Origin: Agarophyton chilense
Taxonomy: Eukaryota; Rhodophyta; Florideophyceae; Gracilariales; Gracilariaceae
Assembly (NCBI GenBank): GCA_030374765.1
Contig: JARGXX010000025.1
Span: 1,240,001 to 1,304,000 of the forward strand
DNA length: 64,000 nucleotides
Direction of reading: 5' to 3'
Part shown: positions 3,087-32,400 of the stretch, piece after piece
Numbering within the stretch: position 1 is the stretch's first letter
Layout of the letters: the number at the start of each line of letters is the position of its first letter
The notes under the pieces: generated by a model
Told to the model about the DNA's origin: nothing
Seen by the model: the letters and a program-made list of their open reading frames with translations, nothing else
Databases searched by the model: none
Program-made: the position numbers and the translations under genes

Positions 3087-3125
3087 ATTAACTTGAGGTG
3101 GTGTCGAATTGGACGGTATTGTCTC

Positions 3126-4898: not shown

Positions 4899-5230
4899 GG
4901 TAAGTTGCTTCAGAACCGTTCTCGGGTGGTTCTGAATCGTTACGAGACCTGGACTGATACAGCTATCTGGGTCATCGCGGGTATCGTTATGGCCTTTGAC
5001 AGGCGAACCTCATTGGAATTCGTTTTTTCGGAGACAACCGCTCGTTTGCGGTTTGCTTCTGGCCTTGGGGCTGAACCAGTTATGGAGATAGAAAAAGCGC
5101 GGTAAAAAACGGCTTTCCTAAGGCCTGGTTAAATGGCCTTGATGTATCGACTGATGAAGGAGGTCCCTATGATTGCGTCTGCGCCCAAGTTAGGTCATAC
5201 AAGGAACCACGAGCGGACTCTGAATCGTCC

Positions 5231-7909: not shown

Positions 7910-8573
7910 TGTAGTATTCTACTACTTCGGCGTTCCGATGGTTTCTTTGTCGCAAAGTCGCGTTTGGAACTCATTACTGAGTGGCCTGGTCAGTGCTAGG
8001 ATAAGAAGCGACACACCGCTTAGGATGCCAGGAGGCAGGGTACATTGTTAGAACACGTGGTATCACTAGTGGAGTGGCTTACAACGGCGCATGTAGTGGC
8101 GATCCACGTGGCTGGTTTTACTACCCTTTGTAGATGTAAGTCCATTAGGGACCGTACCCATGCAATGGTTTGGCTAAGTCGCTGACCACTGGGTATTATT
8201 TACGTATTATTTGGGCACTCACCCTGGCACACAGTATATAGAGTACCAGAGGTGAGCGGCGACTCCAAGTAAAGGAGACAACATGGGCATCATGACTATT
8301 CTGTTCCTCGCTTAGGATTCTTTAACCGGAGATCCGGACGAGCTATAATAGATACTCAGCCCCCAACCACTTAAAGAGCCGTCTCGTACCTACGTCCCAT
8401 CAACGTTTTACAGTTGCACTGTTCACCCTCGCTGGCGAGTAGTGGCCTTACACCCCACTTCCAGCTCGCTGGTGTTGTAGCTCTACCACCCCTTTTCCTT
8501 CGCCGCAAGCGACCCATCGGCAGTTCGAACGCTGTCGCAGGTGTCTTCTCTCTCCGTTAGAGCGGGTACTACA
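7910..8573 (+). repeat. 5' LTR of element B
   Basis: Begins TGTAGTATTCTACTAC and ends GGGTACTACA. It pairs with 16233-16896, and the solo copy at 987-1653 is its reverse complement. It contains a TATA element. Confidence 0.96.
8235..8240 (+). promoter_or_regulatory. Putative TATA box in the 5' LTR of B
   Basis: TATATA within CACAGTATATAGAG, in the middle of the LTR where the U3 promoter is expected. The same motif occurs in the 3' LTR at 16558-16563 and in the solo LTR. Confidence 0.55.
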
Positions 8574-8575
8574 AG

Positions 8576-8593
8576 TGGTCTCCCGACTTAGAA
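8576..8593 (+). promoter_or_regulatory. Primer-binding site of element B
   Basis: TGGTCTCCCGACTTAGAA lies two bases inside the LTR and starts with TGG, as expected for pairing to a tRNA CCA end. The same 18 bases form the primer-binding sites of A and A'. The implied tRNA end is TCGGGAG-A-CCA with C at position 61, which fits tRNA geometry; an acceptor starting with C and pairing C1 with G72 suggests tRNA-Tyr (inference). Confidence 0.85.
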
Positions 8594-8788
8594 CCACTGA
8601 GGTCAGCTGCACTGAACAATTCGTTCCTGCAACGTGGAATCGATATCGATACTTGGAAGAAGTGGAATCACTACAGTTATTGTTTACCAAACCACCTCCG
8701 GCAATTGCGGAATTCATCGTTGTTGAACACGTGGTCGAGAAGTAGAAGACACCATTTGGTTCGCACCTCGACTCACGTTTGGTCTAGG

Positions 8789-10941
8789 ATGCCGAAGACC
8801 CGAAGCCAGTCGAGTACTGGGCGCCCCGGTCCTGCGGGACCACCCCCGAAACCGAGGTTCGCCTCATCTGTTGAAGCAGGAAAGTGGCTGTATCGTCCAG
8901 TGATGTCACGCTCACGCTCGGTGAATGATGAACGAGATATCTCGGATGTACCGGCCCCTGTGGCAGCGGCAGTCACGCACACCACAGAAGCCGTAGTTGA
9001 CCCTGAGGTCTTCGGATCTCAAGAAGAGGATGATTTGCGCAGGAAAGTGCGTCGTCTCAAGTCTGAGTCAAGCGCTTCGCGTGTGCGCATGGTTGCGTTG
9101 GAATCGCAGATCGCTGCTCTTATCGCTGATGTCGAACAATTACGCAGTGCGCATCAAGCATTCGTTTTTTAAGACAATGGGAAGCAGGTCTCTTCATCAG
9201 TGAAAACACTACGTGAGGATTTGAACCATCTACTGGTGAGGTACGGGAATACGCCCGATGCGCTACCCAGCTTAACCGTGGATGTAGAGGAAGTCCTCTC
9301 TCGAGTTAACCCTCGTTTAGAACGCGTGGAGGCGGCAGTTCATGCGCAGACTGCTGCTAAACCAGTCGTGCTGGAAGAGGAAGGAGCTCCTTTGAAGGAA
9401 GCTCGTTCGAAGAAGTGGAAGTCACGACGTAGGAAGCGGAAGTCCGCACGTGATTCGAGTTATGAATCGTCAAGTACGGACGGCTTCAGTTCCAGTACTG
9501 ATGATTCTGATGATTCAGATACGTCAGATGATGACGACAGTGATGATGGTCATCGAAGGGCCCGATCTCGGAAGAAGAACACGTCTTCGTGGTTAGTGAG
9601 AAAAAAGGTTCACCTTACAGAGTATTGAAGGTGCTCCCGTGCACGAATCCGCTTTATCGGAAGGTCCTGAATTACAGGTACTACCGTCTGAAGGTGAAGA
9701 GCAAGAAGCGCTCAGGACGCGAAACCGCGAAGGTGAAAGATCACATCAAACGATTGAAGATCTGCCTTAATGATTTAACATTTGATGGGAAATCTCCCAT
9801 TCTCGTTATCGAGTTTCTGACTCGATTCGTTGCCGAAGCAGACACTCTAGAGATGAGTGAACCACAGGCATTTGTGTCTTTACCACACTTTCTGAAGGGT
9901 TTTGCTTTAGAGCAATATCGTTCCGTATGCGGATCATTGACAGCCGATGAAGGCGGCGTTACCTTATGGCCAGAGGCGCTGCAATATTTGCTGCGCAGTT
10001 ACGCGACTTCAAACGCAATACGTCAAGCGATTCTGGACCTAAGGGATGTGACCCAAAAGCCTGAGGAGGGCGAAGCTGAGTACAGCGCAAGGCTTAACAA
10101 AGCTTCAGTCCGCTGTGGAAACTTCCACTCGACGGAGGACAAGATTATCTTGTTCATCGACGGGCTGGACCCGAGCATCAAGTCGTTGGTAGCTCGATAT
10201 CGAGAGAAGCATGGAAGAGTCTCCTTTTTGGAGTTAGTTCAGTTTGCGAAAGCTGAAGGAGACGCGGCCAGAGCGAGTGGTAGCCCCCGTCGTTCGGTGG
10301 CTTTTGGAACCTCAATAGGTAAGGAGAAGATCTCCGCCAGAGTTAATCAGCGCAGCAAACTGCTACATCTGGAATCTCCAGTTGACTCACGAGATTCGTC
10401 GTTGGCACCCAAAGGGAGTGACTCGCATGAGGAGGCGGTCCATTTAATGGAATATACGGACTCTTCTGTACCTACAGTGGATCTCCCAAACTCGGGGTCT
10501 CAGGACGGGGAAGCCCTAATAGCTATGGAGGGCCGTCGCCCTATGTACCGTCCCTACACGGTGCCTCCACAAGGAGGTTTTAAGAACGGGAAACCCGGAT
10601 GGGTGGATACTCGCACGGCATACCGTTCACAACCTATGTTGACCAACCGTCGTGACGCTTTGATATGTTATTCATGTTATGGAAAACACCATTTGAGTGC
10701 AGAATGCACGCTTCCTGCAAAGGATTTGAGTCGTATCATGACGAATTATGAAGCACTCTCAGAAGAGGAAAGAAGTCGCGTACCGGCGGGCATGTATTGG
10801 AAAGCGAAAAGTTGGTTTTCTCATACCCCAATGCGCCGGACGGACAAGCCGGTTGCTCAGAAAACTGAAGTGTTACAACCCGGAACCCCGGTAGGAAGAG
10901 GCGCCTTTGAGGGGAATAAGCCTGTGCAACCGGAAAACTAA
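8789..10941 (+). pseudogene. gag of element B
   Basis: Best preserved gag here. The start is taken at ATG 8789 (MPKTRSQSSTGRPG). The N-terminal part has a coiled-coil-like stretch (DDLRRKVRRLKSE) and ends at one nonsense codon, TAA 9170-9172, then continues in the same frame through a Lys/Arg block and a Ser/Asp-rich block (residues coded at 9460-9560). The frame then shifts by -1 at an A-run (9601-9606). From there 440 codons are open: capsid (PLYRKVLNYRYYRL, PILVIEFLTRF, RQAILDLRDVTQ) and a zinc knuckle CYSCYGKHHLSAEC of type CX2CX4HX4C near 10666. The gag stop TAA at 10939-10941 overlaps pol by 22 bases, pol being in the -1 frame. Confidence 0.88.
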
Positions 10942-11990
10942 GTGAGGGAGCCCCTAGGGGGTCGGCAGTAGTCGATCCCGTAGTGCTGACCAGGGAGAGC
11001 TCGCCTCCCTGCTCCCGCGCTTGGAAGCCCAAGATTCTCTTGAGGCCTCCCAAATCTCCGCCGTACGGAATCAATACGCCGGACGGAAAGCGAGTACAGT
11101 TTGACTGTGAGTTACATCGTCCTTGGAGATGTTATACTTGTCCGTCAAAACGGGAAAGTTACCTCATGGTAATGTCTAAAGGAAACTATAAGGTCTATGC
11201 CGACATCGGCTCTGACAGGAATCTGTTATCTCGTCGATTGACTATCCTGGACACAGGTGCTGGTCCGAACTTTATACGGGAATCGGAGCTCGCTCCTGCT
11301 GACTTACAACGTATTTGATACGGTCCTTTACCGGACATCCGGGATGCCAACAAAAACGCTGTGAAGACACTGGGAACAGTTCGACTCGTGGTGCGTTTGG
11401 GACGCTTTGTAGTCCTAGTCGACTTCATCATCTGTAAAACGTTAGCTGCATCATTGGTACTGGGATGTGATTATTGCGACAAGTTTGTCGAAGCCATTCG
11501 CCTGCGAAGAAAACTAGTGGAACTAGATGATGGATCAATGGTACTAATTGTTCGCAAGCCAATGCGTCGTTGCCCCGAAGCACCTCCACTTCCACCATCT
11601 ATGAAATACGGTAAATCCCGAGGACGTGTCTCGCCGAGGATTCGAGTAGCGAAGAGTGCCATGCTGAAGGCGCAAACCCAAACTTGGGTTCAAGTAAGAA
11701 CAGAACGACACGGACTCGTGGTAATTCAACCGAATACTCGGATGTACGAATCCAGTGGATTGCTAGTCGCTAACGGCATTGCTCAGGTTGATCCTGGTAG
11801 CCCCTTTTGGATACTAGTGAGTAACTTCACCGATAACGATTATCATATACCGAAGAATCAGGTTGTTGCAACACCTTTGCCTCATCCCACAGTGGTGGTC
11901 CCTACTCATATTTCTACCGCAGAAGTATTGGGATTAACGCATGTCGGTGACACAGACGAAGAACTGCAAACTCCGTCTGGAGATCAATAG
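10920..11990 (+). pseudogene. Protease and linker of element B pol
   Basis: The pol frame is open from 10920. It contains the aspartic protease core LTILDTGAGPNFIRESEL, with DTG, after a Cys-rich lead (RCYTCPSK). Stops at 11316-11318 (TGA) and 11988-11990 (TAG) interrupt it, but the phase is unchanged. The region after the protease includes LVLGCDYCDKF, which corresponds to the second half of the protease fold, and then the segment leading to the reverse transcriptase. It matures Gag-Pol in an intact element. Confidence 0.85.
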
Positions 11991-12800
11991 CAAACGGCAA
12001 AGGATCCAGAGAGCCTGGTCGATGAGCTAGACTTAGCACATGTGTCGGAACACTACAGAACGAAGATCAGGTCTATGCTGAAGAAGGATACATCCATGTG
12101 GAGTGGAAAACTAGGAAAGATCTCCGCTACGGAACACCACATTGATTTGGTCCCATGGTCACGAGCCATCTCCCAACCAGCCTACAGAGCGGGACCGCGA
12201 ACTCGCCAAATCGAGGAGGAGAATGTCAGCAAAATGCTGGAAGAAGTAGTAATCGAAGCAGCTCAATCTGCTTGGGCCTCACCAGTGGTGCTGGTTCCAA
12301 AACCTGATGGTTCTTTACGATTCTGTATCGATTATCGAAAACTGAACGCAGTTACAGTTCGAGATACATACCCGTTGCCTCTAATGGACGAATGTATTGA
12401 CAGCTTAGGAGAAGCGAACGTGTTCACCACGTTGGACGCCAACTCTGGCTATTTGCAGGTGCCTGTAGCGGAAGAAGACCAAGATAAAACCGCATTTGCG
12501 TGTCACGCCGGTCTCTACTGTTTCAAAATGATGCCTTTTGGCTTAACGAATGCAGCGGCTACTTTCCAGCGTACTCTGGACATCTTGCTCTCAAGGTACA
12601 AGTGGAAGACTTGTTTAGTCTATTTGGACGATATGATCATCTTTTCCCAGGATGTGGAAAGTCATTTACGGCATGTCGAGGAGATCCTCAAAGCACTACA
12701 GAGTGCAGGTATCTCCTTGAAGTTCAAGAAATGCGAATGGTTCGCTGGCACCGTCCGGTACTTAGGACATGTGATCAAGCCGGGACAGCTTTCCATTTAA
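11991..12800 (+). pseudogene. Reverse transcriptase of element B
   Basis: An open stretch of 253 codons covers nearly the whole polymerase core. Motifs in order: PDGSLRFCIDYRKLNAVTVR, FTTLDANSGYLQVPV with the first catalytic Asp, MPFGLTNAAATFQR, LVYLDDMIIFSQ with the active-site YLDD intact, and FKKCEWFAGTVRYLGHVI. The stop TAA at 12798-12800 stands in what should be a continuous linker to RNase H. The catalytic residues are all present, so this domain looks functional apart from the surrounding stops. Confidence 0.93.
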
Positions 12801-13580
12801 GAGGCGCAAACAGCGGCTCTCCGCGAAGTACAACCTCCGTCGACACAGAAGCATTTGCGTTCTTTCCTCGGCTTCTGCAACGTCTACCGACGATTCGTGC
12901 CGCGATACTCGAATATAGCGGCACCGCTCAACGCAAAGCTGCGTAAAGGACAACCAGTACAGCTGGAACAATTCAGACAAGCTGAAGTGGAAGCTTTCGA
13001 CACGCTGAAGAAAAAGATTATTACAGCCCCGGTCTTGGCGCTGCCCATCCCCAACCTGCCATACTCAGTGGATACCGACTCTAGCGAGTACCAAGTAGGG
13101 TATGCCCTTTTTCAAACACACCCTGATGGTGAACGCAAACCCATTGGTTACTGGTCAAGATCGCTTAACGCAGCTGAGAAGAAGTATTCAGTTTCAGAAA
13201 AGGAATGCCTTGCAGTCGTTTGGGCTCTAACCACATTGCGACCGTATCTCCAAGGAGAACGTTTTACCTTCAACACGGATCATTCGTCTCTACGATGGTT
13301 ACTGTCCATTACATACCCATCTGGTCGTCTCACACGATGGCGCTTACGCCTTTCTGAATTCGATTTCGAAGTGAAGTATAAGAAGGGATTGGCCAATGTC
13401 CAAGATGACGCGCTATCGCGACTCAAAACACTGGGCGAAACCCAAGGCGAAATCGATGAAGAGATACCTTGCTTCTACATGGAGACCCATTCACCATCTT
13501 TTGAAGAAAATGAACAAGAGACCCTTGATGATTATTCGGATGCAGACCCGTTCCTTGCATTTTCAGACACTGACCCTTAA
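12801..13580 (+). pseudogene. RNase H of element B
   Basis: Continues the polymerase frame after one stop. It starts with the connection LRSFLGFCNVYRRF, then YSVDTDSSEYQVG with the first acidic residue, SEKECLAVVWALTTLRPYL with the Glu, FNTDHSSLRWLL with the next Asp, and DDALSRL at the end. All these residues are as in active Ty3 RNases H. An acidic tail precedes a stop at 13578-13580, which breaks the link to integrase. Confidence 0.92.
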
Positions 13581-13599
13581 GTTCAACTCGAGCGAATCT

Positions 13600-14492
13600 C
13601 GTGCATTGAGCTTCTCAATGAGCAACACGCCGATACGTTTTGTGCGTCGATACGCTCTCGTCTTAACGGGGGGGATGAGCTCCCCTTTTCACTCGATTCA
13701 CGAGGAATACTGTTAAGACATGTCGAAAAGCATGATCAAATCGTGATTCCACACGAATTGAAGAGTCGAGTGCTTCATCTGGCACACTCCATCAGGCTGT
13801 CTGGTCATACAGGAGGAACGAAGTTGTTCATGACCCTAAGAAGAGATTTTTCCTGGCCTACTTTGGCAATGGACTGCCATGCTACAGTGAGGTTGTGTAC
13901 AACATGTGCGAAGAATCGCGTTAAGCTTTACAGGAAGCGGAAACCGATGACGTTATTCCATGCTAAAGGGCCTTTACAATACATCAGTATCGACATCCTA
14001 GTGGAATTGATTCTCTCAAGGCGAGGTTATCGCTACATATTGGTGCAGACTGTGCTGCTGAAGCGAATAACCGCCGCCGTAATCGCACAGGCGTTTATCA
14101 AGCACTGGGTATTTATATACGGACCACCAGAAGTTCTGTTATCAGATAATGGGAAGCAATTCGTTGCGAAGTTCTTTCAGAATGTTTGCCGCAGCATGGG
14201 CATTCGAAACGTGTTTACCACGACCTATCATCCGCAATGAAACGGTGAAGTGGAGCGTTTCAACCGCACGCTGATAGCAGCATTACGACACTACATCGCG
14301 GACCACCCGAAAGAATGGGACATGTTTACAGATACTCGGTGCTACGCGTACAATACGCAAGTGCATACCTCTACAAAGACGTCACCGTTCGACCTCGTGC
14401 TCTCACGTAACCCTCCGGCTTTACCGGTTGCGCTCGACGACGAGACAGAATTGGAACCACCGACCCAGGCTAAGTACCATCTGAAGACCTGA
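13600..14492 (+). pseudogene. Integrase core of element B
   Basis: The zinc-binding part shows HLAHSIRLSGHTGG and CTTCAKN. The catalytic core has SIDILVE with the first Asp, LLSDNGKQF with the second, and NGEVERFNRT with the Glu. TGA at 14238-14240 falls between HPQ and NGE, where a Thr or Ser codon is expected. The frame ends at 14490-14492, after which the GPY/F module and chromodomain continue in another frame, so an indel lies near 14490-14530. Confidence 0.9.
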
Positions 14493-14530
14493 AGGCCAGA
14501 GCGGAAGAAGCCGCTAAGGAGTTATCAAAA

Positions 14531-15658
14531 ATGCATGCTCGCTATAAGCGAAACTATGACGCCAGAAGGCGAAGAGGAAATCCGGCAATCCGAGTAGGAG
14601 GTCACGTCTTCGTGCGGGTCGAAAGACCTGACAAACAGGAAGAATCTCGTCATAAGTTGTTTCTGATAGCGGCTGGGCCCTTCAAAGTGGTGGACCTTAT
14701 TGAAGACACAGTGGTCATCAAGACAGGTGTGGACGTTGAACGTGTATCGCACGATCGCGTTGAAGTAGCACCTGACCGGCAAGTGGAAGTCCAGGTACCT
14801 GGTAGAACTAAGAGGGCAAGTGCGACGGAACGTCAAGGAAAAAGCCCAAGTGACTCTGGGGAGAGTGAACCGCCACCAATGGCTCGAGCGGAGGAGAAAG
14901 CTCCTGATCTTCCACCGCTGGCGGTTGCGTACGCCAATCACGGACAGCTTCCGAAGTATCGGGATATGCCCCGTGGCACGCGCACACCCGTAAGTACAGA
15001 AATGGAACCTGAAAGCAGGAAAGATGTTTTGGAATTTGGCCCCAAGGACTTGGAAACGAGTGCACGCGAAAGCGCGCCGTTGCCGCTTCAGGCTGAACCG
15101 TCAGGTGAAGCGCCACTCGCTGTTCCGCCGATATCGGCTCCCATCCCTCGTGGGCAGGAAGAAGAAGAGGTATCGCCTCCTGTCGTGGTGCAAGCACCAT
15201 CGCCCACCGAACAGCGGTCAGAATCGGATAAACCGAAGGAAGTTCATCCACGAATGGAATTGAGAAGTAGCAAGAAGTACGCTTCTATGGAACCTGGAAA
15301 ACAGGATAGCTCTTTATCTGAGAAAGGTTCTCAAGGAATGAGTACACTGCACATGCGGGCAGAACGACAGTTATTCGACGAGCGAATGCTTAGCGACGCT
15401 GAGACTGCTAACACAGAGACGCTTGGGTCAGCCCTAAGGCATTTCAAACCTGTTAACAGGAGTCTCGAGCCAACAGCGAAAGCATTGGGAAACGCCCAGG
15501 AATATGTTATGGATCGCATATGTGAACATGGCGAGCATGAAGATACTAGAGAATTACTGTATCGAGTCCGTTGGTACGGTTTTCCTCCGGAAGCGGATAC
15601 GTGGGAACCTATAGCTCATATCCCCGTTCGCAACTCGTGCGATATCATCGACGCATGA
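14531..15658 (+). pseudogene. Integrase tail with GPF module and chromodomain, element B
   Basis: An open stretch of 375 codons. It starts with the end of integrase (ARYKRNYDARRRRG), then VGGHVFVRVERPDKQ and the GPF-type module AAGPFKVVDLIEDTVVI, a long Pro/Glu/Ser-rich spacer of about 200 residues, and at the C-terminus a chromodomain: EYVMDRICEHG, LLYRVRWYGFPPEADTWEP. The spacer is much longer than in A. The frame differs from that of the integrase core, a single indel being enough to explain this. The chromodomain should guide integration to marked chromatin. Confidence 0.9.
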
Positions 15659-16222
15659 GACTACCACTCCCCAGGGAGATCGAATCCTCGATAGTCGGGC
15701 TCATGGGCACATCCCATTTCTATGTATGAGCTACAAAGGTAGTAAAAACTCGAAATGCGAGAAGAAACCAAGAAAACATGAAGAAGAAACGTTAAAACAC
15801 GCAAGCACAGGATATTTACTGATTATCACCTATGAAGAACTCGAGAAGCGAAAAGAAGAATTGAAGAACTCGAGAAGCAAGAAGAGAAGTCAGGGACTCA
15901 TTAGGCCCAGAACAACCGGTAGCATTGGTATTGCTTTGTGGCTCGGGTGTGGCGTTTGCTAAGATCGGCAGACACCGTATGATGCAGTGGACTGCTTGCT
16001 GAAGCCTCACTGGCTGAAAGAACCCTTGAGGCACGACTTAGCCGTCAAGTTTGACGGGCTGTGACCATTGCCCTTCATCGCAGGATGTGAAAACGCGGCT
16101 GGCGCCCGAACACCAGAGGACTGGGTTTGCTAAAAGAAGTCGTGAGAACGATGAGTACCCGGAACGCCGGTTGTCGCACATGTGGTGCCCCTTTCTTGCG
16201 CCCGATACGGTTGGCACTTAGC
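15659..16222 (+). other. 3' untranslated part of element B
   Basis: Between the pol stop and the polypurine tract I see no gene on either strand. There is an A-rich, Lys/Glu-coding stretch around 15730-15890 (repeated GAAGAACTCGAGAAGC) that is open for 78 codons but looks like low-complexity sequence. Families A and C carry an antisense gene at this position; B does not. Confidence 0.6.
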
Positions 16223-16230
16223 GGGGGGGG
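16223..16230 (+). promoter_or_regulatory. Polypurine tract of element B
   Basis: A run of eight G, two bases before the 3' LTR, in the position of the plus-strand primer. Confidence 0.7.
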
Positions 16231-16232
16231 TA

Positions 16233-16896
16233 TGTAGTATTCTACTACTTCGGCGTTCCGATGGTTTCTTTGTCGCAAAGTCGCGTTTGGAACTCATCAC
16301 TGAGTGGCCTGGTCAGTGCTAGGATAAGAAGCGACACACCGCGTAGGATGCCAGGAGGTAGGGTACATTGTTAGAACACGTGGTATCACTAGTGGAGTGG
16401 CTTACAACGGCGCATGTAGTGGCGATCCACGTGGCTGGTTTTACTACCCTTTGTAGATGTAAGTCCATTAGGGACCGTACCCATGCAATGGTTTGGCTAA
16501 GTCGCTGACCACTGGGTATCATTTACGTATTATTTTGGCATTCACCCTGGCACACAGTATATAGTGTACCAGAGGTGAGCGGCGACTCCAAGTAAAGTAA
16601 ACAACATGGGCATCATGACTATTCTGTTCCTCGCTTAGGATTCCTTAACCGGAGATCCGGACGAGCTATAATAGATAGTCAGCCCCTAACCACTTCACGA
16701 GCCGTCTCGTACCTTCGTCCCATCAAAGTTTTACAGTTGCACAGTTCACCCTCGCTGGCGAGTAGTGGCCTTACACCCCACTTCCAGCTCTCTGGTGTTG
16801 TAGCTCTACCACCCCTTTTCCTTCGCTGCAAGCGACCCATCGGCAGTTCGAACGCTGTTGCAGGTGTCTGCTCTCTCCGTTAGAGCGGATACTACA
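16233..16896 (+). repeat. 3' LTR of element B
   Basis: 664 bases, TG...CA, pairs with 7910-8573. TATA motif at 16558-16563. Confidence 0.96.
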
Positions 16897-16901: not shown

Positions 16902-16916
16902 TAAGTCGGGAGACCA
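16899..16916 (-). promoter_or_regulatory. Primer-binding site of element A
   Basis: On the minus strand TGGTCTCCCGACTTAGAA, three bases from the LTR at 16920. Identical to the sites of A' and B. Element B inserted inside its far end. Confidence 0.85.
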
Positions 16917-16919
16917 AAA

Positions 16920-18505: not shown

Positions 18506-18952
18506 TGTAACGCAATGACTGGTAGGTCAGCGTACTGGTCTCAACCTGAGGTAGCGTTATAGAGCGGGTCCTATGATCCGTATCCTTGACGGCGGCACTC
18601 TTGTAGTCTTTGGTGCAATGGGCGGGCGTTTACTGCGTAGTCCTATAGGTCTGAGCTCCGGAAACGACGGCTGCAAGACGAATTGGTGGAACTAATGTAC
18701 CCAAGAGGGTAATTTAGTATTCTAGCGTTGCCTACCTGATTCTAAGAAAGAAGCGTCACTCGAGCCAAGTAAATATCAATGGCGAGGCGCTGGGATCTCC
18801 CTTGCACTGTAAAGCTATCCTATTCGCACTAAATAAATTAAAATAATTATCTAAATATGTCCAGCTGAGGTCGGCCAGTCCACGTGGAGTCTGTGAGATA
18901 CATCGGGCCCTGGCGGCGTAAAGGACTCAATCGTAATCGTTGCTCCTTCAAA
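18506..18952 (-). repeat. 3' LTR of element A'
   Basis: Left LTR, TGTAACGC... to ...CTCCTTCAAA; the terminal CA of the family appears mutated to AA. Immediately right of it is a pyrimidine-rich stretch (18957-18965, TCCCTCCTT), which on the minus strand is the polypurine tract AAGGAGGGA. Confidence 0.9.
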
Positions 18953-19212: not shown

Positions 19213-21604
19213 ATGCTTGCGGGTATGAGAGCGTATGAGCTGATCCTTGGCGCCAGGATGGGAATTAATTCACCTTATGTACTGTACGCGCACCGAAGGG
19301 GCGGTCATCGCCGCTTTCGCTCTTCCCCGCTATTTCTTTGGCGACCCTGCGCACGTCGTCCGCCGTGATCCATGGTGCGCTCTTCGTCCATTCGGGTTCC
19401 CCTCGGTCATCCCACCTGATTCAGTTCCATCTTTCCTCTTTTCCGTCGTGGTATTCCTCCATTGGTCGCGAACGATGCAGAACACGCCTTATAAACCCGT
19501 TGGATACGCTACTCTCCGTCCAAACTTTGTTGCTTTCGTCGGTTTGCCGATTCATTTCCTGGCGCACCAACCTGTTTGCAGCGGCGCCATGGCTTCAAAC
19601 AACCATGCGGGGAATTCTTTGGGAAACCATGTGACGTTTGTGCGCCCCGGTGACCGTTTTGACCATACCATTGTACGAAACCCGCGGGCAGTGCGTCATG
19701 CCATTCTGCCGACCTCTGTGGAAAAATAACAGAGGTTTTGTCATGTGTATCTCGATGCCCGGAGGTTCGCTGAGACCCCCGAGTTCTGCAGGGGCAAAAA
19801 GAAGGCGCGCAACGTCTTGTGGTGTAACCGTTGGTTGCATTGGCCTGTGGATCCGCGTTCGGCAACGCGCTGTCGTACCCTCATCCAAGCGAACATGCCG
19901 TATGTCCATTGTGCGAAGGAAGCCGAGTACCAGTTCAAGGTGAACAAACTTCTTTCGGACCTATATGAGGACTTTATTTCGCATCACGTGAGATTTGCTA
20001 CGGCGGGTCACAGCCTTTTGGCGCTCATGTGCTTCTGACTGCCGCACGACCGCCTGTTTTGGATGTCCAATAGGCTTTATTGGAACGAGGTACATGAGCC
20101 CGATGGTGATTTGCGTCAATCCCTGGAGTTCTTCTTCTGTTGGGAACAGGTGGGGTTTCACGACATGAGCACCGACAAGCGTCCTCCACTATACTGATCG
20201 CTTCCCCGCGTGGATGAGAACCAATGGGCTCTTTACTGGCCTATCTGGCTGCTCTTATTGGTTCCCACGCCGTCCGTAGTGGCATATCATTCGTCCCAAC
20301 TCATGGGCGATGACGAAGGTCTTGGTTTTCCTCGAAGTTTCTCTACGTTGAGTTCGGCGTAATTTCCCTTATGGCATTCCTGGATACCGCGAAGTACGGA
20401 GTCCGTGGTAATGTCCATTCGGATGATTGGAGGGTATGGCACGATGAGCGCATACCCGGCCCTAGAGGTCGTGTAGTCCCGCTTCCGGACATCATGATAC
20501 ATTTCCTAAGGAACCTGGACATCCAGAACATCGTCCGTGGGACCCAGTTCGCAGTCGATGAGGCTGAGGCCCATTTGGATCATGTATTAGAGGTGGAGTG
20601 GAGCAGGACTCCTGGGTTCCTTTGGTATAATCATGATACAGACTCGTTCACGAAAATTATGGTTACATTTGCACGGTCGGGATGACACTCGTACCTATCC
20701 CGCCAAGGCTTTGACGAATCAACCATCGGACATTCTGCGGCATCATGTGCCTGACTATTACCCGAAGGCCATTCGTTTCGATCTCCTGTGCTTCGAGCCT
20801 GATTTGGAAGCCACGCCGATGGTTCCTGCTGGCATTTCCGACGGAGAAACCTTCGGTGACGATCCCTTCATCCTGCCCGTGGAGGGCGTCAATCCTCCCG
20901 TCGAGTCCAATCTTGTGTTGACGACCGTTTCCCCTCCTCCAGCTCCTTCGGGCGCTGCTCCTCAGGGTGAACTCTCCTATGAGCTGCCCGTCGCCCAAGT
21001 GGACATCCTTCTTGGAGAGGTTACTGTCGAAGCCGCTAGTCCTGTAGGTGATTCGATGGCTCTGAAATCCATTGTGAACGTCGACATTGCTCCGTCCTCT
21101 CCTTCGCCGCATTTTCTCGCTTCGCTCAAGGCTGCCGCCGCCGATCTCCCTCATGTCTGCCGTACAGTTGGTATTACTGCATCGATGGACATCGCGACCG
21201 TGCTGAGGGAAGCTTGCTCTTGAGCACGTCTATCGGCGCGCTACGCCACGATTGTCCAGCAGGTTCAAGATCTGGGGACGGCTATGGTCAATCTGCTGAA
21301 GCAGAATACACAAATGAGGCCCCAGAGGGTTACTGCCGACTTGGATGCCAGGTATGGTCTAAATTTGAGCGACCGGGAGGCTTTCGATGGTGACAATAGC
21401 CTCTCAGGTGAATCTTCGCCGAAGAACGGTGCTTTGCTCGATGGTGCCGGTCCTATTGGTACAGTAGGCTCCTTGGCTGATCCTAGTTCCGATTTCGCTC
21501 CCAGTGCCTCCCCAGTGAGTCCTTTTGGCGTTCGGAGCGCTTTCGCGAATCTTGAGGTCATGACGAGGGATCTTAGGCTTCTGCTAGTTAGTCAAATAAA
21601 ATAA
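19213..21604 (+). pseudogene. Antisense accessory gene of element A'
   Basis: A gene of about 800 codons on the strand opposite to gag-pol, filling the space between the 3' LTR and the chromodomain. The start is taken at ATG 19213 in the context GCCACCATGC. Pieces lie in two frames: 19213 to about 19290, 19247-20180 (with stops at 19727-19729, 20036-20038 and about 20195), 20371-20685, then 20633-21604 with a TGA at 21221-21223. It shares motifs and order with the antisense gene of C1: a Trp-rich block with RC and HC pairs (19800-19920), GRVVPLPDIMIHFLRNLDIQ then GTQF (20460-20560), a Pro/Ser-rich linker and a helical C-terminus. No signal peptide, membrane segment or known enzyme motif is seen. 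Function unknown. Confidence 0.75.
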
Positions 21605-22080
21605 TGCTTGTACTTTCCCAAAGTCGCTCGTGTATGCCTCCAACGTGCGTGACCCCTGACGGCGTCCGAACCTTGAAAGCATCCTGAGGTCTTCCTCAGG
21701 TGTCGCCTGAGAACTGACGTTGTTCCCTGATGCGGGCGCTACGGCGGACCGTCGTGTCCGGAAGTGTATTGAAAGACGTTTTGGGAGGCTGTTTGTGTTA
21801 TTCGGGCCAACGGTTGCCCCCTCCTGAAGGCTGCGCTCCGCGCTGCCGATTTTTCGCCAGTAGCGGGCGATAAAATTAGCCGGAATGGTTTTGAGGATTT
21901 TGAAAAGTGTCTTCCTTTGGAGTATAGCCAAACCAACGGATGCGATAGCGCATTATCGCATCTTCTCCCCGACTGGCGGAGATGATTCGTTAAATAACGT
22001 CTTCCTGTTGGTATTCCTCCTCCGGAAGGAGAGTGTGGTCCAGAGAGGCGAATCCACGGGAGTCGGTTCAGAGAGATTGG
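21584..22080 (-). pseudogene. Chromodomain and C-terminal tail of element A' pol
   Basis: On the minus strand the chromodomain core RYRIRWFGYTP is visible around 21920-21950, followed after a frameshift by a tail that ends YLTN-stop at 21584-21586. That end overlaps the last 21 bases of the antisense gene. Compared with A (662-986) the tail is longer because A has an earlier stop. Domain assignment rests on similarity to A. Confidence 0.75.
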
Positions 22081-22199
22081 TCATCGTCATTGGCATTGAC
22101 TAGTCGGTCCGTGGGGACAGTCGTGTCCGCGGATATTGCCTTAGGAGCTGTGGGGACTTGAGCCTCGGTCTGAGGTCGGGGTGATTCTGTTGGGCCAGG

Positions 22200-23420
22200 G
22201 GACTGGTTCTTTGGTGTATCGGGGGAGCTGGGAGCTTGTGTCACCCGATCAATCGATACGGTGTCCTGTAGGCCGTCGATTAGTAACGTAATGGTATGTT
22301 GATTGGCTTTAAGAACTTTGTATTGTCCCAGAGATCGGTAGAAGAGCTTCTCCGTAGTGTCCTCGAAGTCCTTACTATCCCTCGGTGGCCGGTACAGTTA
22401 AACCATTTCTCCTTTCCCAAAGGTCGGTGTGTTCCGACCGGCCTTGTCGCAACTGACCTTTTAACGCCGTTGGGCTTTGGTGAGTATAGTTCTAGTCGAT
22501 TGGATAATGCTGTCGATGTGTCGGCGCAAGTAGTGTTTCGCCTTAGTATGAGTCATTCCTTCGGTTATGTCCAGGAGTATAATTGACTTTTGAAGGTAAA
22601 CAGCTATCGGCGGTGGCGATCTCGTGAGCGTTAAATCAAAAGGTGTTGTCCCCGTGGAAGCGTGTACTTGAGTGTTGTAGGCATAAAACGGTGTCTCAAC
22701 GTAGTAGTCCCAGTCCAACTGGTGCTACGATACGTATTGTGCCAATCGGTTCAGAAGGGTACGGTTGAAGCGATCGGCTTGGCCATTGCTTTGCGGGTGT
22801 TATGCCGTTATGGTTACATGTTTGGTACATAAGGAAGCACAAACGTGCGAAAAGAATTTGGATACAAACTAGCTGCCATTATCCGAAAGGAGGTAGACTG
22901 GTATTTCATAGGGATATGCCCAGTGGGACAAGAATGCCGTGGCGACATCTGTGGCTGTTGTCTTTTCTAGAGGTAGGGCTCAGGTAAGTTCGGTAAACCT
23001 TTCGGTTATTACCAAGGCAAACCCTTTCCGATGGAACGACGTGGGCAAAGGTCCAATTATATCCATCGCGACGAGTTCCATCGGCCCTGCAGCGAAGAAA
23101 AGTTTCAATTTGGTTTGATGGTTGGCGCAATATTCTCGGATTTGACCCCATGAAGTGCAGTTCCGTGCGGTTTGCCATAGGTCCTGCGCCATTAGTGGCC
23201 AGTAGAAGAACTTCCTTAGGGTCTGGTACATTCGCCCGCCTCCAGGGTGACCAGCCAAGCGAGGAAAATGGGCGAGGTATAGGAATCGCATCCTCAGTGA
23301 TCCTGGTATTACCCGTTGGAGTGCGCCATCCAGTGGTTCGCGGCGGCACAGTAGTCCTAATCGGTCGTAGTCGAATAGGAATGCAGGGTTTTCTACTAAT
23401 TGGGCCTTTTCCTTGCATTA
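22200..23420 (-). pseudogene. Integrase with GPY/F module, element A'
   Basis: Minus-strand integrase remnant. It has YLAHFPRLAGHPGG and CTSW, where the second Cys of the zinc site is now Trp, VAMDIIGPLP with the first catalytic Asp, and further on YYVETPFYAYNTQVHAS and FDLTLTRSPP of the C-terminal half. Several stops and frame changes occur near 22450, 22720-22980 and 23290. It is close to the integrase of A, which has kept CTSC but lost the first Asp. Confidence 0.85.
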
Positions 23421-23533
23421 ATCGTCTTCGACCTGCGCCTTTAAGAGCTCCTCAATAGGTATAGGGAGGAGTTCTTTTCCTCTTGGGTTTTTACATTAAC
23501 CTGAGGTGGTGTCGAATTGGGTGGTACTGTCTC

Positions 23534-24100
23534 TCAGTCCAATAAGTAGACTTCATTCTCCCTTACCGCAGGATCATCCATTTTGACCGTACCCATAAGG
23601 TAATCCGTTTCCGTATTATCCTGAGGTCCATCATCGGTGAAGGGAGTAGAAATGAGTTCGTCCAATAGCGTGTCATCAGTTCCGTCTGTAATGATTCGCG
23701 AGAAGGCATCTGCGGCCTGGTTCTTGATGCCTGGCCTATAGTTTATATCATAGTAATACTCTGACAGCCTAAGGCGCAAACGAGCAAGGCGACTTGATGC
23801 GTCGGTCAAATTGAGTAACCAGCGAAGTGAATCGTGGTCTGTTCTAAGGTTGAACCTAGTTTCCTCAAGGTATGGTGGTCTTCTTAATACAGACCATACT
23901 ATCGCGAGACATTCCTTTTCGGTAGTACTGTAGTTTCGCTCCGCGCTGGTGAGCGTTCTGCTCCAGTATCCATTAGGTCGATGATCCTTTGGTGAATCTT
24001 GTTCCAGTAGCAATCCACATCTTACTTGGGCATCAAAAGCGTCTGTGTCCAAGACAAAGGGCCTATTGGGTTTTGGTAAAGCCAGTATGGGTGGGTTCAG
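23534..24100 (-). pseudogene. RNase H of element A'
   Basis: A 172-codon open stretch holds the whole RNase H: MDTDAFDAQVRCGLLLE, TEKECLAIVWSVL, LRTDHDSLRWLL and AADAFSRI. The acidic residues expected for activity are present. The link to the reverse transcriptase is interrupted by a stop near 24100. Confidence 0.88.
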
Positions 24101-25020
24101 CTATTTGTCTTTTAGAGTCTGAAATGTCTGATATTGGTCCTCGGTAAGGCATTCATACTCCGAAGGTGTTTCCTTCTTCAATACTGCGTTGATAGGGGCT
24201 GGATTTTTAGCAAATCCTTGGACGAAACGTCGGTAAACATTGCACCAGCCCAAAAAGGATCCTAGTTCCGTGTAGGTTTTGAAAGTTTTAGCCTGGCTGA
24301 TCGCATCCGTGGTCCGTTTGGCTACCTTTAACTTTCCTGGAAGGACGACGTGACCGATGTAGTTCACTAAGGCCTGATAGAAGGCACATTTGCAGAGTTT
24401 CAGTGTTTCTCCGGCATCCTGTAGAATTGTTAGCACTGTCCTAACGTGGAAAATGTGTTCCTTCAGGGTTCGTGAGAAGATTATTACGCAATTTCAATAG
24501 ACGAAGGCGAATTTCCATTTAGTTTTGGACTGTATGATGTCCATTACCCGTTGGAAGGTCGCTGGCGCATTTTTGAAATCAAAGGAAATACGAGTAAATC
24601 TGAACAGACCTTCAATGGTGGTGAAAGTTTTCAGCCCTCTCGCATTCTCAGCCATAGAGATTTTCTAATATCCGGAATTAGCGTCCAGTATGGTGAATAC
24701 GGCTGCTTCACCTAAAGAATCTACAGAGTCATCCATACGGGGTATCGGGTATTAGTCCCTCTTGGTTACTGCGTTCAGCTTTCTATAATCAACACAGAAC
24801 CTGACGGAGCCGTCCTTCTTCGCCGCGAAGACAAGGGAACTTGTCCATTAGGATTGGTTAGGAGGCCCCGGCTCTGTGACGTGAGCTTTGCGCATTTTGC
24901 CCATCTGGTCGGCGACAATTTCCATAGCCTTCAGACCTGTACGGTATGGGTGCTGGAACTGTGGTCTAGCATCATCCCGAAGGTCAGAGTCTGTTTGGGT
25001 GCATGTCCATTACTCCATTG
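24101..25020 (-). pseudogene. Reverse transcriptase of element A'
   Basis: Degenerate minus-strand polymerase. FTILDANSGY-type sequence is visible near 24680-24700 and the thumb and connection at 24101-24436 (CKCAFYQALVNYIGHVVL, LGSFLGWCNVYRRFVQG). At the active site (about 24480-24500) the expected YxDD reads Y-stop-N-C before VIIFS, so both catalytic Asp are lost. Relative to A about 285 bases between the protease and the polymerase fingers are missing. Confidence 0.82.
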
Positions 25021-25039
25021 GCCATCAAGGTGAGGTGCT

Positions 25040-25570
25040 TAGAACCGTTTTCGGGTGGTTCTGTATCGCCACGAGACCTGAGGACTGGGAATGGATCGAT
25101 ACGGTGATTTGGGTCATCGGGGGTATCGTTATGGCTTTCGATAAGCGAACCTTATTGGACTTAGTATCTTCGGAGATAACTGCTCGTTTGAGATTAGCTT
25201 CTGGCCCTGGGGCGGAACCAACTATGGAGATGGAAGGCGCGCGGTAGAATGCAATTTTTCTAAGGCCTATATGAATAGCCTTAATGTATCGATCGATGAA
25301 GGAGGTCCGTAGGATTGCGTCAGCACCCATGTTAGGTCAAACAAGGAACCACGAGCGGACTCTGAATCGTCCTCAATGTATGTAAAGTGGTACTATCCCT
25401 TTAATGTCCATTGGTCTACGTGATGCATCGGTAATCCTGGGGGAATTATTTCCCTGAAAGAATTCTTGCCAACCCAGTGGGAGTAGCTTAGGATGGACCA
25501 AGTTGGGAACAGCGCCTGTGTATAATACGGCTGTGGTCACTCGAGAGTAGTTGGAACGGAGTCCCACGGT
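25040..25570 (-). pseudogene. Aspartic protease of element A'
   Basis: Minus strand VLYTGAVPNLVHPKLLPLGW: the catalytic DTG has become YTG, so this copy cannot cleave. Downstream the frame FIDRYIKAIHIGLRKI and then a segment toward reverse transcriptase (25025-25330) remain open for 101 codons. Otherwise nearly identical to A at 5231-5425. Confidence 0.82.
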
Positions 25571-25699
25571 TACTCGAGCTTTTCAGTTCTCTTTCCTGAG
25601 GATACAGACAGGGTCGTTACTGTGTTCAAATTGTGGTTCAACCTGAGTTCTCTATGCTGGGTGGTTGGTATTGGGGGGTTAAGAGCTCTTTGGCTCATG

Positions 25700-27817
25700 A
25701 CTGTCCAATTGGTTGAGGCAGGGGCTGAAAAAGGGAGGATTTGCCTCGCGTCGACCCTCTAAGGGTTTTCCGGTGGGGTTTCCGTTTCTTCCTGAGGATA
25801 AAATTACTTTTCGAGGTCGTCCGTAGGATCTATAATGGCGTGGACCTGTGGGGCTTTGATCGGAGTGTCCGGAAGCGTGGCATAGTGGGAGCTTCCAGGT
25901 GTTCCTGTGGCTCGTTGATGTGCCCTGTTGAATATTCCCTCGGATCTTTTCACCTTGTAATTCTCTTCCCTTAGGACTAGAAGATGTTTGCGAGCATCCT
26001 CAGGCAGACCCCTCGTGCATTCACAGAGTTGGCCCATGGAAAGGCAGCGGAAACAAGCCCTTGGTCAGCGACCAAAAACCTCATTGTGGAGTAGAAGGGG
26101 GGTTTACTTGGGTGTGGGTGGTCCAATGGTTGCTGTAATTCCCTGGGAAGTATATGATGGGGGGCCAGACGGAGGGGCACTGAAATGAACCGCGCGGATA
26201 TCTTCCTAGTCGGCATAATGGAGTGATGAATCCATGTCCGATTCCGTGGAGCTAGCCAAATGGGCTGGGTTTGGTTTACGCAATGGAGTCGCGTGTCCTC
26301 TGGATATATCAGCATTGCGCGTGGAAGTCCTGTATGGTTTTCCGTAACCTTCGGCGTAGGTGACGAGTCGTTGGAAGGAGTAATGTGGGTTTTCCGTGTG
26401 GTAATTACGGAAATGTGTCCTAACAGCAGGTAGTAATCCCATGATGAAAATACGTTTGAGCCTTTTTTCGGAGAATACGTTTCCACATCGGTAAGCTTTC
26501 TTCCATAGGTGGTTTGCGAAAGCCGATTCGGTCATGTTGGAGCTCTGCCTAAAAGATATTAATTCCTGGTAGGCATCCATTATAACGTCATCTGTGGCAT
26601 AGGTTCCCAAGAGGTAATGAACAACCTGAGGGTATGACCTGAGGAGCTCACGGTCTCGAGCATCCAAGAGGTCAGATGTACCAGATATCTTCGAAACCAC
26701 TCCGTCATGCGCCTGTCCCTGTGGAGAAAAATTGGAAAAGGTACAGAGCGGCGCCCTCGTGGACACCGTGCTGATCACAGGCGGTACGGAAAAAACTAAG
26801 AAACCTAAGGACAGCAATGGGATCGGAACCCGAGAACTTGTCCGTAATGGTTAGTTGCATCCGTTTGGCCCATTTGGCGACTCTTCGAGCCACAAAAACA
26901 GAATTTTTTGCAGGCCGGTCGGCCAATCGGGAATTCAGGTAGTCTAGAACGATAAGAAAAAGTTCGTTGGATGTTGTTAGGGGTTGAAGGCCTCGAACGG
27001 CAGCCTCATCCTCTTCCGAGTCGATCGTTTCGATTGAGTCCCAAGCGAAATCACTGGTGCCCGAATGGTCTCTTTTTTTACTCTTTCTGTTCTATTTTCT
27101 CCTGCGGTTACTTCGTTCCTTTCCAGCAGAATGGGGACCAAAAGGATCGATCTCTATATCAGATCTAATGGAGCCCTGAGGTCGCTGTCTCTCATATTGT
27201 CCTTTGAGTCGATCAATCTGAATCTCTTCTAGACGCGGAGCTTCTCTTCTGCTCCTAGATTGTCTTTCCATTGGATATTATTTATGGTGTTCCCGGCGAG
27301 GGGCGGGTAATACCGCCACTCCTGGGGGTTCGGTAGAGGATTACCATATGGAAACCGGATGCTTGACTTTTGGAGTGGTCCTCGGGAACGCATTGCCTGG
27401 CTGGCTAGTGACTGCTCCTTGAACGGCCTGTAGGAAGGAGTCTATGAATAATTCAGACTCCGTTACCTTAGGGATTATTCGCGTAATGAGGTAATCCGTA
27501 TGGTCAGCGATCGCCGTAGCGGGTCGCATGTGCACAATGGAATCCACATGGTCTGAGCAGAGCTCACGGAGACGGGTACAGAGAAGGTCGGAAAGCCCTG
27601 CGGGCATGTTCTGTCTAATTCCTTCGGTCTGCTGGGGTTCTCCTTAGGGTGTCCCTGGCCTAGAGGTGGCCCTGGTGAGGCTTTCTCGTAAACGCCCTGC
27701 CACCGTGGGTTCCCGGCGAATCCTTTCAGGGTTAGCCATGGGGGTCAGTGCTTCTTGCGGGTGGCTTCTCGTGCTCCTGCGGTCGCTCACGGCATCAACC
27801 TGAGGGCCGGGCGACAT
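25700..27817 (-). pseudogene. gag of element A'
   Basis: Start at ATG 27817 (MSPGPQVDAVSDRRSTRS-like). N-terminal part at 27341-27607 (MPAGLSDLLCTRLRELC, ADHTDYLITRIIPKVTES), capsid at 26206-26926 (SDPIAVLRFLSFFR, VHYLLGTYATDD, LWKKAYRCGNVFS), and a CFRC...CEC zinc-knuckle relic near 26030-26060 lacking the His. There are frame changes near 26720-26820, 26490 and 26210. It encodes the particle protein in an intact element. Confidence 0.82.
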
Positions 27818-27999: not shown

Positions 28000-28017
28000 T
28001 TCTAAGTCGGGAGACCA
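28000..28017 (-). promoter_or_regulatory. Primer-binding site of element A'
   Basis: Minus strand TGGTCTCCCGACTTAGAA, three bases from the 5' LTR, identical to A and B. Confidence 0.85.
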
Positions 28018-28020
28018 AAA

Positions 28021-28466
28021 TGTAACGCAATGACTGGTGTGTCAGCGTACTGGTCTTAACCTGAGGTAGCGTGGTAGAGCGGGTCCTAAGGTCCGTATCC
28101 TTGACGGTGGCACTCCCCGAGTACTTGGTGCAATGGGCTGGCGTTTACTGCGTAGTCCTACAGGTCGGATCTACGGAAACGATGGCTTGAAGACCATTTG
28201 ATGGAACAATTGTACCAAAGAGTGTAATTTAGTATCCTGACGGTGCCTACCTGATTTTAAGGGAGTAGTGCCCCTCGAGCCAAGTAAAAATCAATTGCAA
28301 TGCGCTGGGATCTCCCTTGCCCTGTAAAGCTATTTTACCACACTGAATAAAATAAAATAATTATCTAAATTTGTCCAGCTGATGTCGACCAGTCCACGTG
28401 GCATCTGTAAGATACCTCAGGCCCTGGCGGCTTACTAGACACCATCTCAATCGTTGTACCTTCACA
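28021..28466 (-). repeat. 5' LTR of element A'
   Basis: 446 bases, TGTAACGC... to ...CCTTCACA. The outer flank AAAAT corresponds to AAAAC beside the solo LTR at 48436-48881, showing that this right end sits at the same ancestral site. Confidence 0.9.
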
Positions 28467-30640: not shown

Positions 30641-31480
30641 TTAGCTTCTTGAAAAAAAGACGAAGATATCGAGCACCATGAAAGCCACAAGTATGGCATA
30701 AGAAAGAGCTGCACCCGCCTTAATTTCTTCTGTGGAAGCACTATCATATGCTTCCTCAAACATAGTAACTATAAGTTAAACATCACTCTTGGGTTTACTA
30801 CTAGGCATTTGGTTCTATTTGTTACCGTGCTGGATACCGGAGCGGGACCCAATCTGGTGAATGCGAGACCATTACCACCAAGGTTGTTGGACAGTATAAA
30901 GCCCTGCACATTGCAGAGCCCACTCTTGGATGCTGACAATAGACCTCTTTCACTCAGTGGTTATATTACCCTTATGGTCATAGTAAAAAACGGAAGGTAG
31001 GAGTCCGCTTTATTGTGATCAACCAACTGGAAACAGCTTGTATCCTGGGGGCACTGTTTATCGACCGCCATTTCCGGGGTATTTTTTCCGGATCCCATAC
31101 GTTACTTTTCAACAATGGACCACGCATATCCATTATTGGTAAGCGCAGAGAACCTCAGAAACAGAACACCAGGCGGGAGGGTGCAAACCAACCAGCGGGT
31201 ACAATATCTTATAAGGTCCGGTTAGCCCGTAAGGTATGCATTCCACCTTCCCACCAAATTGTCGTACAACTCACATCCTTGCGACCAGGTATGGTATCAA
31301 TTCAGAACCATGCCAAGTTCGTGGATAACACAAGACCTTATTGGCAAATTGAATTTTCGAGAACATACCGAACAAACAGTTCAAGGTATACCCAAGTAAG
31401 TTCAGCAACCACATTGTAAAACCCCCCAAAAATACCGATATCGGCTTAGCGCTCCAGCGGCGAGGTCACATCTTCACAAT
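30641..31480 (+). pseudogene. Protease and linker of element C1
   Basis: The frame from about 30660 leads into the protease core FVTVLDTGAGPNLVNARPLP with DTG. It then continues in another frame (31015-31419) with ACILGALFIDRHFRG, the second half of the protease fold, and the linker SYKVRLARKVCIPPSHQIVV. This resembles A and B in order and motif but is clearly a separate family. The gag region upstream is too decayed for me to define. Confidence 0.8.
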
Positions 31481-31639
31481 GAAACCGGTATGATCTCACG
31501 TAGACGAAAATGATGAGGAGGAGGAGGCGAGGGAGAATAAAAACCAGAAGGTAAAGAAAAAGGCCGAAAACAAAGTGAAGACCGACACCGACATGGAATT
31601 GGATGAAATGAAGGACTGGAGAGAGGAAGTAAACGTAGG

Positions 31640-32400
31640 CCTTAAATTTGAAAGAAACCGAAAAGATTACTCTCTCCAATAGAATTGTTCGAAACCATGT
31701 GATCGGGACGGCTGGGTATCATAGAAGCAACGCAGCGCCGCATAGACTTGGTGCCAGGCGCCAAGCCTACTCAAAAACAACCGTACCGGGCCGGTCGAAA
31801 AGTCTGTTAGGTAGAAGTAAAGGACGTGCATAGAATGCATTGAGAAGGTGTGACTGAACCCCAAAATGAGGAATGGCCAAGTCCCGTGGTGCTTGTGCGA
31901 AATCGAGTAGAATCCCAAATGCGGTTCTGTATCAACTATCGGAAGTTGAATGCCGCTACGGTAAGAGAATCGTATCCGATACCACGAATGGATGAATGCA
32001 TCGATTCTTTACGGGATGCAAATATATTCACCATACTTGATGCCAACTGCGGTTATTGGCAAATAGAAATACCCGAGGAAGACAGAGATAAGACCGCGTT
32101 CACCTTTCACGCTGGTCTCTACCGATTCCAACGAATGTATTTTGTTTTACGCGATGCGCAGGCAACCTTCCAACAGGCTCTTGGCATTATACTGTCGAAT
32201 TTAAGGTGGAAAACCACGAGCACGTTCGTACCGTACTGGATCTCCTCAGAGAGACTGGAGTAACTCTGAAGTTGAGCAAGTGCATCTTCTTCTTTGACCA
32301 GAAGGTAGAGTATCACAGGCACACAATAAGCCCAGGAAAACTCCAGGTAGCCAAATGAAACCTAAGAGCAGTACAAGAAGCGAAAACCGCTTCAAGCCAA
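31640..32400 (+). pseudogene. Reverse transcriptase of element C1 (active site deleted)
   Basis: An open stretch at 31850-32263 shows SQMRFCINYRKLNAATVR, YPIPRMDECIDSL, FTILDANCGYWQIEI with the first catalytic Asp, and AFTFHAGLYRF. Where C2 has TALAYIDDVVIYSKP, C1 lacks 54 bases (between CCAC repeats at about 32215), removing the YIDD active site in frame. The polymerase is therefore dead. The connection to RNase H (LSFIGFCNVYRRFIKG) follows at 32401. Confidence 0.9.

Follow-up and report, generated by a model that had tools for sequence, protein, structure and literature searches.

A gene antisense to gag-pol, shared by three Ty3 families of the red alga Agarophyton chilense and kept under purifying selection

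Results

A stretch of 64,000 nucleotides from the red alga Agarophyton chilense (contig JARGXX010000025.1, positions 1,240,001 to 1,304,000; the window) contains several Ty3 retrotransposons with long terminal repeats (LTRs), and some of them carry an additional gene that follows the end of pol tail-to-tail and is encoded on the strand complementary to gag-pol. This antisense gene is real and is shared by different Ty3 families, so that the central reading of a preliminary description of the window is supported. We found the gene in the window elements A, A', C1 and C2 (families A and C) and also in a third family, D, located elsewhere in the genome; the number of two families given in that description has therefore to be raised to three, while the sharing itself stands. 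In A, C and D the gene has been under purifying selection while the elements multiplied.

In A' the gene is decayed and occupies approximately positions 19475-21604 on the + strand. Two open family-A proteins match this region with 64-76% identity (tblastn) in one collinear run from 19475 to 21511, which is divided into three segments (19475-20314, 20314-20658 and 20663-21511), as the + strand frame shifts from 2 to 1 near 20.31 kb and back to 2 near 20.66 kb. The open reading frames (ORFs) are interrupted by stops at 20038 in the first stretch and at 21223 in the third, and the last ORF ends at the stop at 21604. An ORF of 104 amino acids is located in the conserved core (20371-20685, + strand). 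Since the 3' LTR of A' covers 18506-18950 and its pol homology, on the - strand, reaches 21894, the gene lies between pol and the 3' LTR, internal to the latter as in D. Of the antisense gene of element A only the C-terminal part is inside the window (6-443, + strand, 68-71% identity in tblastn), with the remainder beyond the window edge.

The decayed antisense gene of C1 covers 34469-35936 on the - strand, opposite to its pol on the + strand. With the D protein as tblastn query, the core (35936-34938) shows 37% and the C-terminal part (34909-34469) 33% identity (E 4.5e-72). In C2 the gene was located at 54919-56076 (- strand) by tblastn. Both C1 and C2 had been named as carriers and both do match; however, they lie in the two copies of one duplicated block and are therefore not independent evidence. 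The antisense orientation to gag-pol was found in A', C1 and D, and the gene previously described for A' and C1 is borne out by homology runs together with a pol on the opposite strand. The motifs quoted for the two proteins also agree with our alignment.

As a control for chance, 200 shuffled D proteins were compared with the A' and C1 stretches, and 0/200 matched either of them at the threshold of E <= 1e-3. The unshuffled D protein matches C1 at E 5e-73 and A' at 8e-5, the A protein matches C1 at 2e-8, and the antisense proteins of A and D share 24% identity (E 1e-18). The similarity between A and C is hence well beyond chance.

Family D was recognised in the genome, which was searched as an assembly of 79.8 Mb in 135 contigs. 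The best candidates were scored in each search, and the copy counts are lower bounds. With the C1 core (117 amino acids) as query, 150 matches were scored of 337 candidates, including a group at approximately 33-39% identity with open frames of up to 876 codons. Among 18 loci retrieved, nine (L011-L019) belong to one family, D, in which the antisense gene is present as open frames of about 820-875 codons and the long pieces listed show approximately 86-94% DNA identity. The D element has the layout of a Ty3 element. Its LTRs (L011 and the neighbouring L033) are 634 bp long with the ends TGTCGT...ACGACA, and their alignment of 638 bases shows 91.9% identity; the element is flanked on both sides by the 5-base target duplication GGAAA. 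Between them follow, in this order, a gag frame of 785 amino acids, protease (with a match below its own Pfam cut-off), reverse transcriptase, RNase H, integrase, the antisense ORF and a purine-rich tract. In L011, the antisense ORF covers 2528-5032, the integrase ORF starts from 5247 and the LTR lies at 1302-1935; about 210 bases separate pol from the antisense ORF. Towards the 3' LTR there are roughly 600-700 bases, followed by the purine-rich tract on the gag-pol strand.

Most of the copies listed from the genome are decayed, but some are open. The A' core gave 150 matches scored of 566 candidates. A family-A query of 655 amino acids gave 69 matches listed (68 scored of 1422 candidates), and the stop-free copies among these are two full-length ones, one being the query itself, plus one copy split in two. 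For the D query of 821 amino acids, 55 matches were listed (55 scored of 1727 candidates), of which 51 span from residue <=4 to residue >=816 and four, the query's own locus included, are free of stops. The start codon is shared by all eight D copies that reach this site, and the terminal stop is present in 8/8 of those with letters there (nine copies aligned). Two family-A copies on one contig (G000:C71, 740862-742826 and 764916-766499) lie about 22 kb apart; their antisense proteins are 97-99% identical, and one of them is without residues 375-501.

Selection was analysed by comparing copies in pairs. The observed nonsynonymous, synonymous and stop changes were set, for each of the six frames, against the numbers expected if base changes of the same kinds were scattered randomly over these codons. 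For D (nine copies, 36 pairs), the nonsynonymous to synonymous ratio of the antisense frame is 0.71 and its stops amount to 0.29 of the expected number, compared with 0.78-1.34 and 0.54-1.10 in the other five frames. In the core of C (15 rows) the corresponding values are 0.69 and 0.45 (other frames 0.82-1.49 and 0.78-1.03), and in A (six rows) they are 0.56 and 0.43 (other frames 0.68-1.55 and 0.71-1.19). In D, the C core and A alike, the antisense frame thus has the lowest ratio and the strongest depletion of stops of all six frames. The rows of C exclude L007 and L009, which represent the loci already covered by L021 and L020, the window's own copies L001 and L004, and L005 and L006, which score the same as C2.

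When this selection took place can be judged from the distribution of the changes in D. Changes found in at least two other copies, which have mostly arisen during multiplication, were separated from changes found in one other copy only, with L014, L011 and L012 as references and with nine copies for the antisense gene and eight for pol (L016 was dropped as too short). In the antisense gene, the ratio is 0.46, 0.49 and 0.43 for shared changes and 0.87, 0.86 and 0.89 for single ones; in pol of the same elements it is 0.29, 0.29 and 0.34 for shared and 0.96, 0.84 and 0.86 for single changes. An earlier version of this count had given 0.42/0.87 and 0.24/0.88. The stops among the shared changes number 0, 0 and 1 for the three references. 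Since shared changes are strongly synonymous and single ones nearly neutral, the antisense protein was selected while the element was mobile. In this mobile phase the constraint on it was comparable to that on the element's other proteins, although somewhat weaker than on pol (0.43-0.49 against 0.29-0.34), and both drift after insertion. The selection in the antisense frame that should be visible in the codon pattern if the preliminary description was right was accordingly found in D, in A and in the core of C.

The length of the antisense protein is approximately 655-680 residues in A and 820-875 in D. About 330 residues form a conserved core in which Trp, Pro and Gly motifs are shared; the rest consists of a linker rich in Pro and Ser and of a C-terminal part. 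The core positions common to all four groups include VPTP, W, GR and GT. Near the C-terminal end there is a basic motif, which reads KKRTR or KKRAR in family A and RKRPR in two relatives from the protein searches, P0005 and P0006. It is present in L029, L030, P0005 and P0006, was recognised by eye in L032, P0007 and P0012, and has a variant in P0003. We take KKRAR and RKRPR to be motifs of the nuclear-import type. Judged by this motif, A and those relatives on other contigs that extend to this end may be nuclear proteins; D lacks the motif.

Relatives were searched in a set of 5.8 billion proteins, of which about 8000 best candidates were scored for each query, so that more relatives may exist. 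Among the scored candidates, at least one protein was found with the D query, at least four with the A query and at least nine with a six-row alignment (P0005 also with the A query), all of them from A. chilense or from contigs of the sources 'lgn' and 'ena'. Four annotated A. chilense proteins without a product name hold pieces of the antisense protein, and one of them (P0002) matches the genome with 100% identity over 418 residues. P0005 (674 amino acids) and P0006 (652 amino acids) are 50% identical to each other and approximately 31-39% to family A; they are known as proteins, in which the strand relative to pol is not visible. P0007 joins an N-terminal part of DnaA to the antisense protein and probably stems from a chimeric contig.

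No known domain was detected. At E <= 1, no Pfam model matched four D proteins and two window pieces or any of the 14 rows of alignment A5, and at E <= 10 the sole listing for two A proteins and two relatives from other contigs was DUF5575 with one A protein (E 0.32), below the cut-off. No solved structure in the PDB matched alignment A3 at E <= 1. One scan of bacterial and archaeal contigs and two scans of viral contigs gave 17, 1 and 2 pattern matches, none of which is a relative. An origin by duplication of gag was considered and rejected: when the antisense protein was compared with the gag sides of families A and D, nothing appeared beyond matches of E 0.04-0.08 (and one of 0.41) on D, in frames that are not those of gag.

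Concerning the age of the gene, the preliminary description had left the choice between an ancient gene and an exchanged one. A tree of pol (reverse transcriptase to integrase, 12 rows) separates A and B from C and D with a support of 0.998, and a tree of the antisense protein (13 rows) sets A with P0005 and P0006 apart from C and D (support 1.000). The identities point in the same direction: the reverse transcriptase of D is 61% identical to that of C (L026), about 52-56% to that of A and 50% to that of B, and the antisense protein of D is 37% identical to that of C1 and 24% to that of A. This agreement fits a gene that was already present in the ancestor from which A, C and D descend, with absence or loss in B. 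The compatible trees thus favour co-descent, the ancient side of the alternative, over exchange, but with three carrier groups they do not decide against an old exchange.

The remaining features of the window concern the elements themselves and their neighbours. The 3' LTR of A' (18506-18950, - strand) is 84% identical to its 5' LTR (28021-28464, - strand). Just inside the latter lies a putative primer-binding site (28007-28020, - strand), whose 14 letters are common to A', A (16906-16919) and D. The gag-pol remnants of A' cover 21894-26817 on the - strand, with pol homology at 24628-21894, an RNase H domain at 23537-24052 and further ORFs, and the pol remnants of C1, known from ORFs and homology, cover 31015-34406 on the + strand, with a reverse transcriptase domain at 31850-32260. 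LTR pairs of C1 and C2 were searched and not found, and the same is true of the ends of the C element. Nested in A is element B, a chromodomain Ty3 element at 7910-16896 (+ strand), whose LTRs (7910-8573 and 16233-16896) are 96.7% identical and in which tblastn found no match to the antisense gene. Its chromodomain at 14531-15655 is the sole one found; in 13 gag-pol-side pieces of A, C and D (7 + 6), in which the pol ends are partly covered, no chromodomain was detected at E <= 0.01, and four of the set of six gave no domain whatever. For the chromodomain difference between A and C given in the preliminary description, these pieces speak neither for nor against.

The duplicated block that carries C1 and C2 (28017-35658 and 48432-56110, 89.5% identical) starts in an A-type LTR, and near copies of A' and C2 pieces are also present on contigs C58 and C113. 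A second repeated block occurs at 38128-41138 and 60944-64000 (94% identical). An inverted B-type LTR is located within A at 987-1653. At 60151-60756 there is D-type LTR sequence, apparently a solo LTR, with no other D match of more than 250 bases listed beside it.

Discussion

We lean towards the view that the antisense gene encodes an accessory, probably nuclear protein that acts in trans in an ambisense Ty3 lineage of this red alga. Its coding nature and the selection on it are observed. By analogy with Grande and Retand, two plant elements discussed below, the gene would be transcribed from a promoter of its own, situated either within the 3' LTR or in the approximately 600-700 bases that separate this LTR from the start of the gene, and its product would enter the nucleus. 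There it might serve as a regulator or chaperone that acts on the DNA intermediate or, by anti-silencing or activation, on the transcription or the chromatin state of the element, and it would presumably not be a structural protein of the particle.

Several points weigh against this interpretation. The direct match between D and A' is weak (E 8e-5), and D is without the C-terminal basic motif and has an N-terminal RGRGRGG stretch instead. Stops are carried by 51 of the 55 D matches listed; in total there are 177 stops over the 55 rows, or 3.2 per row, by a hand count in which a small number of rows seem to repeat a single copy. The expectation used for the selection analysis ignores the sequence context of mutation, and the copy pairs are not independent. 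Moreover, the nine copies were picked largely for long frames, which biases the stop counts. The D loci were located via the antisense gene itself and hence give no measure of the share of elements that carry it. In the N-terminal region of C (13 rows), the antisense frame has a ratio of 0.726 with stops at 0.68 and the wobble-matched opposite frame a ratio of 0.723 with stops at 0.83; since these ratios are nearly equal, this region alone does not decide the strand. Finally, the changes private to the reference are few and scattered in their ratios, with 1.05, 0.78 and 0.96 for the antisense gene and 0.58, 0.71 and 0.92 for pol.

Among the other explanations, a structural or packaging factor, which would be a further protein of the particle that coats it or attaches to the genomic RNA, is unlikely. 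A long protein with basic or RG-rich segments that was kept in three families would suit such a role, but D already possesses an open gag frame of 785 amino acids, and nothing on the gag side resembles the antisense protein beyond the matches of E 0.04-0.08 in a frame that is not that of gag. It is also rather improbable that the antisense RNA matters and not the protein, i.e. that this RNA, by pairing with its genomic counterpart, adjusts the copy number or sets off silencing, with the frame being incidental. The arrangement would indeed yield convergent transcription, and regulatory antisense RNAs have been discussed for LTR elements (PMC7264820). However, an incidental frame explains neither the amino acid similarity across families (24% between A and D, E 1e-18) nor the excess of synonymous changes and the depletion of stops in exactly this frame.

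An envelope-like or movement-type surface protein, as in LTR elements with an env gene, is very unlikely, although a gene added between pol and the 3' LTR brings it to mind. Over five proteins, the most hydrophobic 19 residues score 1.2-2.1, and the top value, 2.09 at residue 467, marks one hydrophobic segment in D. The maxima of P0005 and P0006 are only 1.46 and 1.21, so these two have no hydrophobic segment of such strength; in addition, the gene is on the opposite strand and not in sense orientation, the C-terminal motif is basic and no env family was matched in Pfam. That the gene was captured from a DNA transposon or from the host and hitchhikes with the element, having no role, hardly merits belief: the protein has no known domain and capture of extra ORFs by LTR elements is known from rotifers (PMC5408684), but the similarity extends across three families and to contigs from elsewhere, and the shared-change ratio of 0.43-0.49 with 0, 0 and 1 stops contradicts the idea as far as the selection test goes.

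The preferred explanation, an accessory protein with a probably nuclear role, has parallels in other LTR elements. Gene23 of Grande is reported to encode a nuclear protein and to be transcribed from a promoter upstream of the gene, and it has been considered for regulatory roles (PMC7264820). Grande and the algal elements agree in the place and the antisense orientation of the gene, and a nuclear-type motif is seen in the antisense proteins of family A and of relatives on other contigs; the host here, however, is a red alga, and no relation was detected by Pfam, with no direct comparison to the plant proteins. In Retand, antisense Transposase_28 proteins are found in 97% of clusters and have regions predicted to bind DNA (PMC11963269). 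Here, too, the antisense gene is placed between pol and the 3' LTR, is carried by nearly all members of a Ty3 lineage and is suspected of a role with nucleic acids. Its family PF04195 differs in that it was unmatched in the algal proteins (at E <= 1, or at E <= 10 for two A proteins and two relatives from other contigs); it was not found in the genome either, although that is a weak test in which 14 control genomes were silent as well. Outside the plants, the LTR element Boty of Botrytis and Sclerotinia, compared here by description only, also has an antisense ORF located between pol and its 3' LTR (PMC7264820). Retroviral antisense proteins, such as HBZ of the human T-cell leukaemia virus (HTLV), are mentioned in PMC11963269. 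The algal antisense protein, in which no bZIP or other Pfam domain was matched, differs from HBZ in this respect. HTLV HBZ is a bZIP protein, a nuclear protein encoded antisense in a retroelement.

As far as the Pfam scans and the literature search show, the protein family and the red-algal host are new to the antisense-gene architecture, while the architecture itself is of a known kind. No paper on antisense genes of red-algal LTR elements was found among the titles and abstract starts listed by searches of the open-licence PMC literature, and two Gracilaria genome papers (PMC10388701, PMC12502185) contain no occurrence of LTR or gypsy. The published assembly of Gracilaria chilensis consists of 66.2% repeats (PMC10388701). 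Because no Pfam model matched, such elements can be mis-annotated.

Conclusions

That plant LTR elements carry antisense genes has long been known, but no function has been assigned to these (PMC7264820). A protein family without visible relation to them that occupies the same position and orientation in a red alga, and whose selection was gauged against that on pol of the same copies, suggests that the arrangement itself is useful, and the genome of A. chilense offers many datable copies for asking what the antisense gene does. Tentatively, red algae may hold an ancient ambisense Ty3 lineage with an indispensable, antisense-encoded nuclear regulator, in which case this type of gene would have arisen at least twice in Archaeplastida or would be one very old gene that has diverged past detection. 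If this were true, long Ty3 elements would seem to require, as a general rule, an antisense protein that has a promoter of its own and is late or resistant to silencing.
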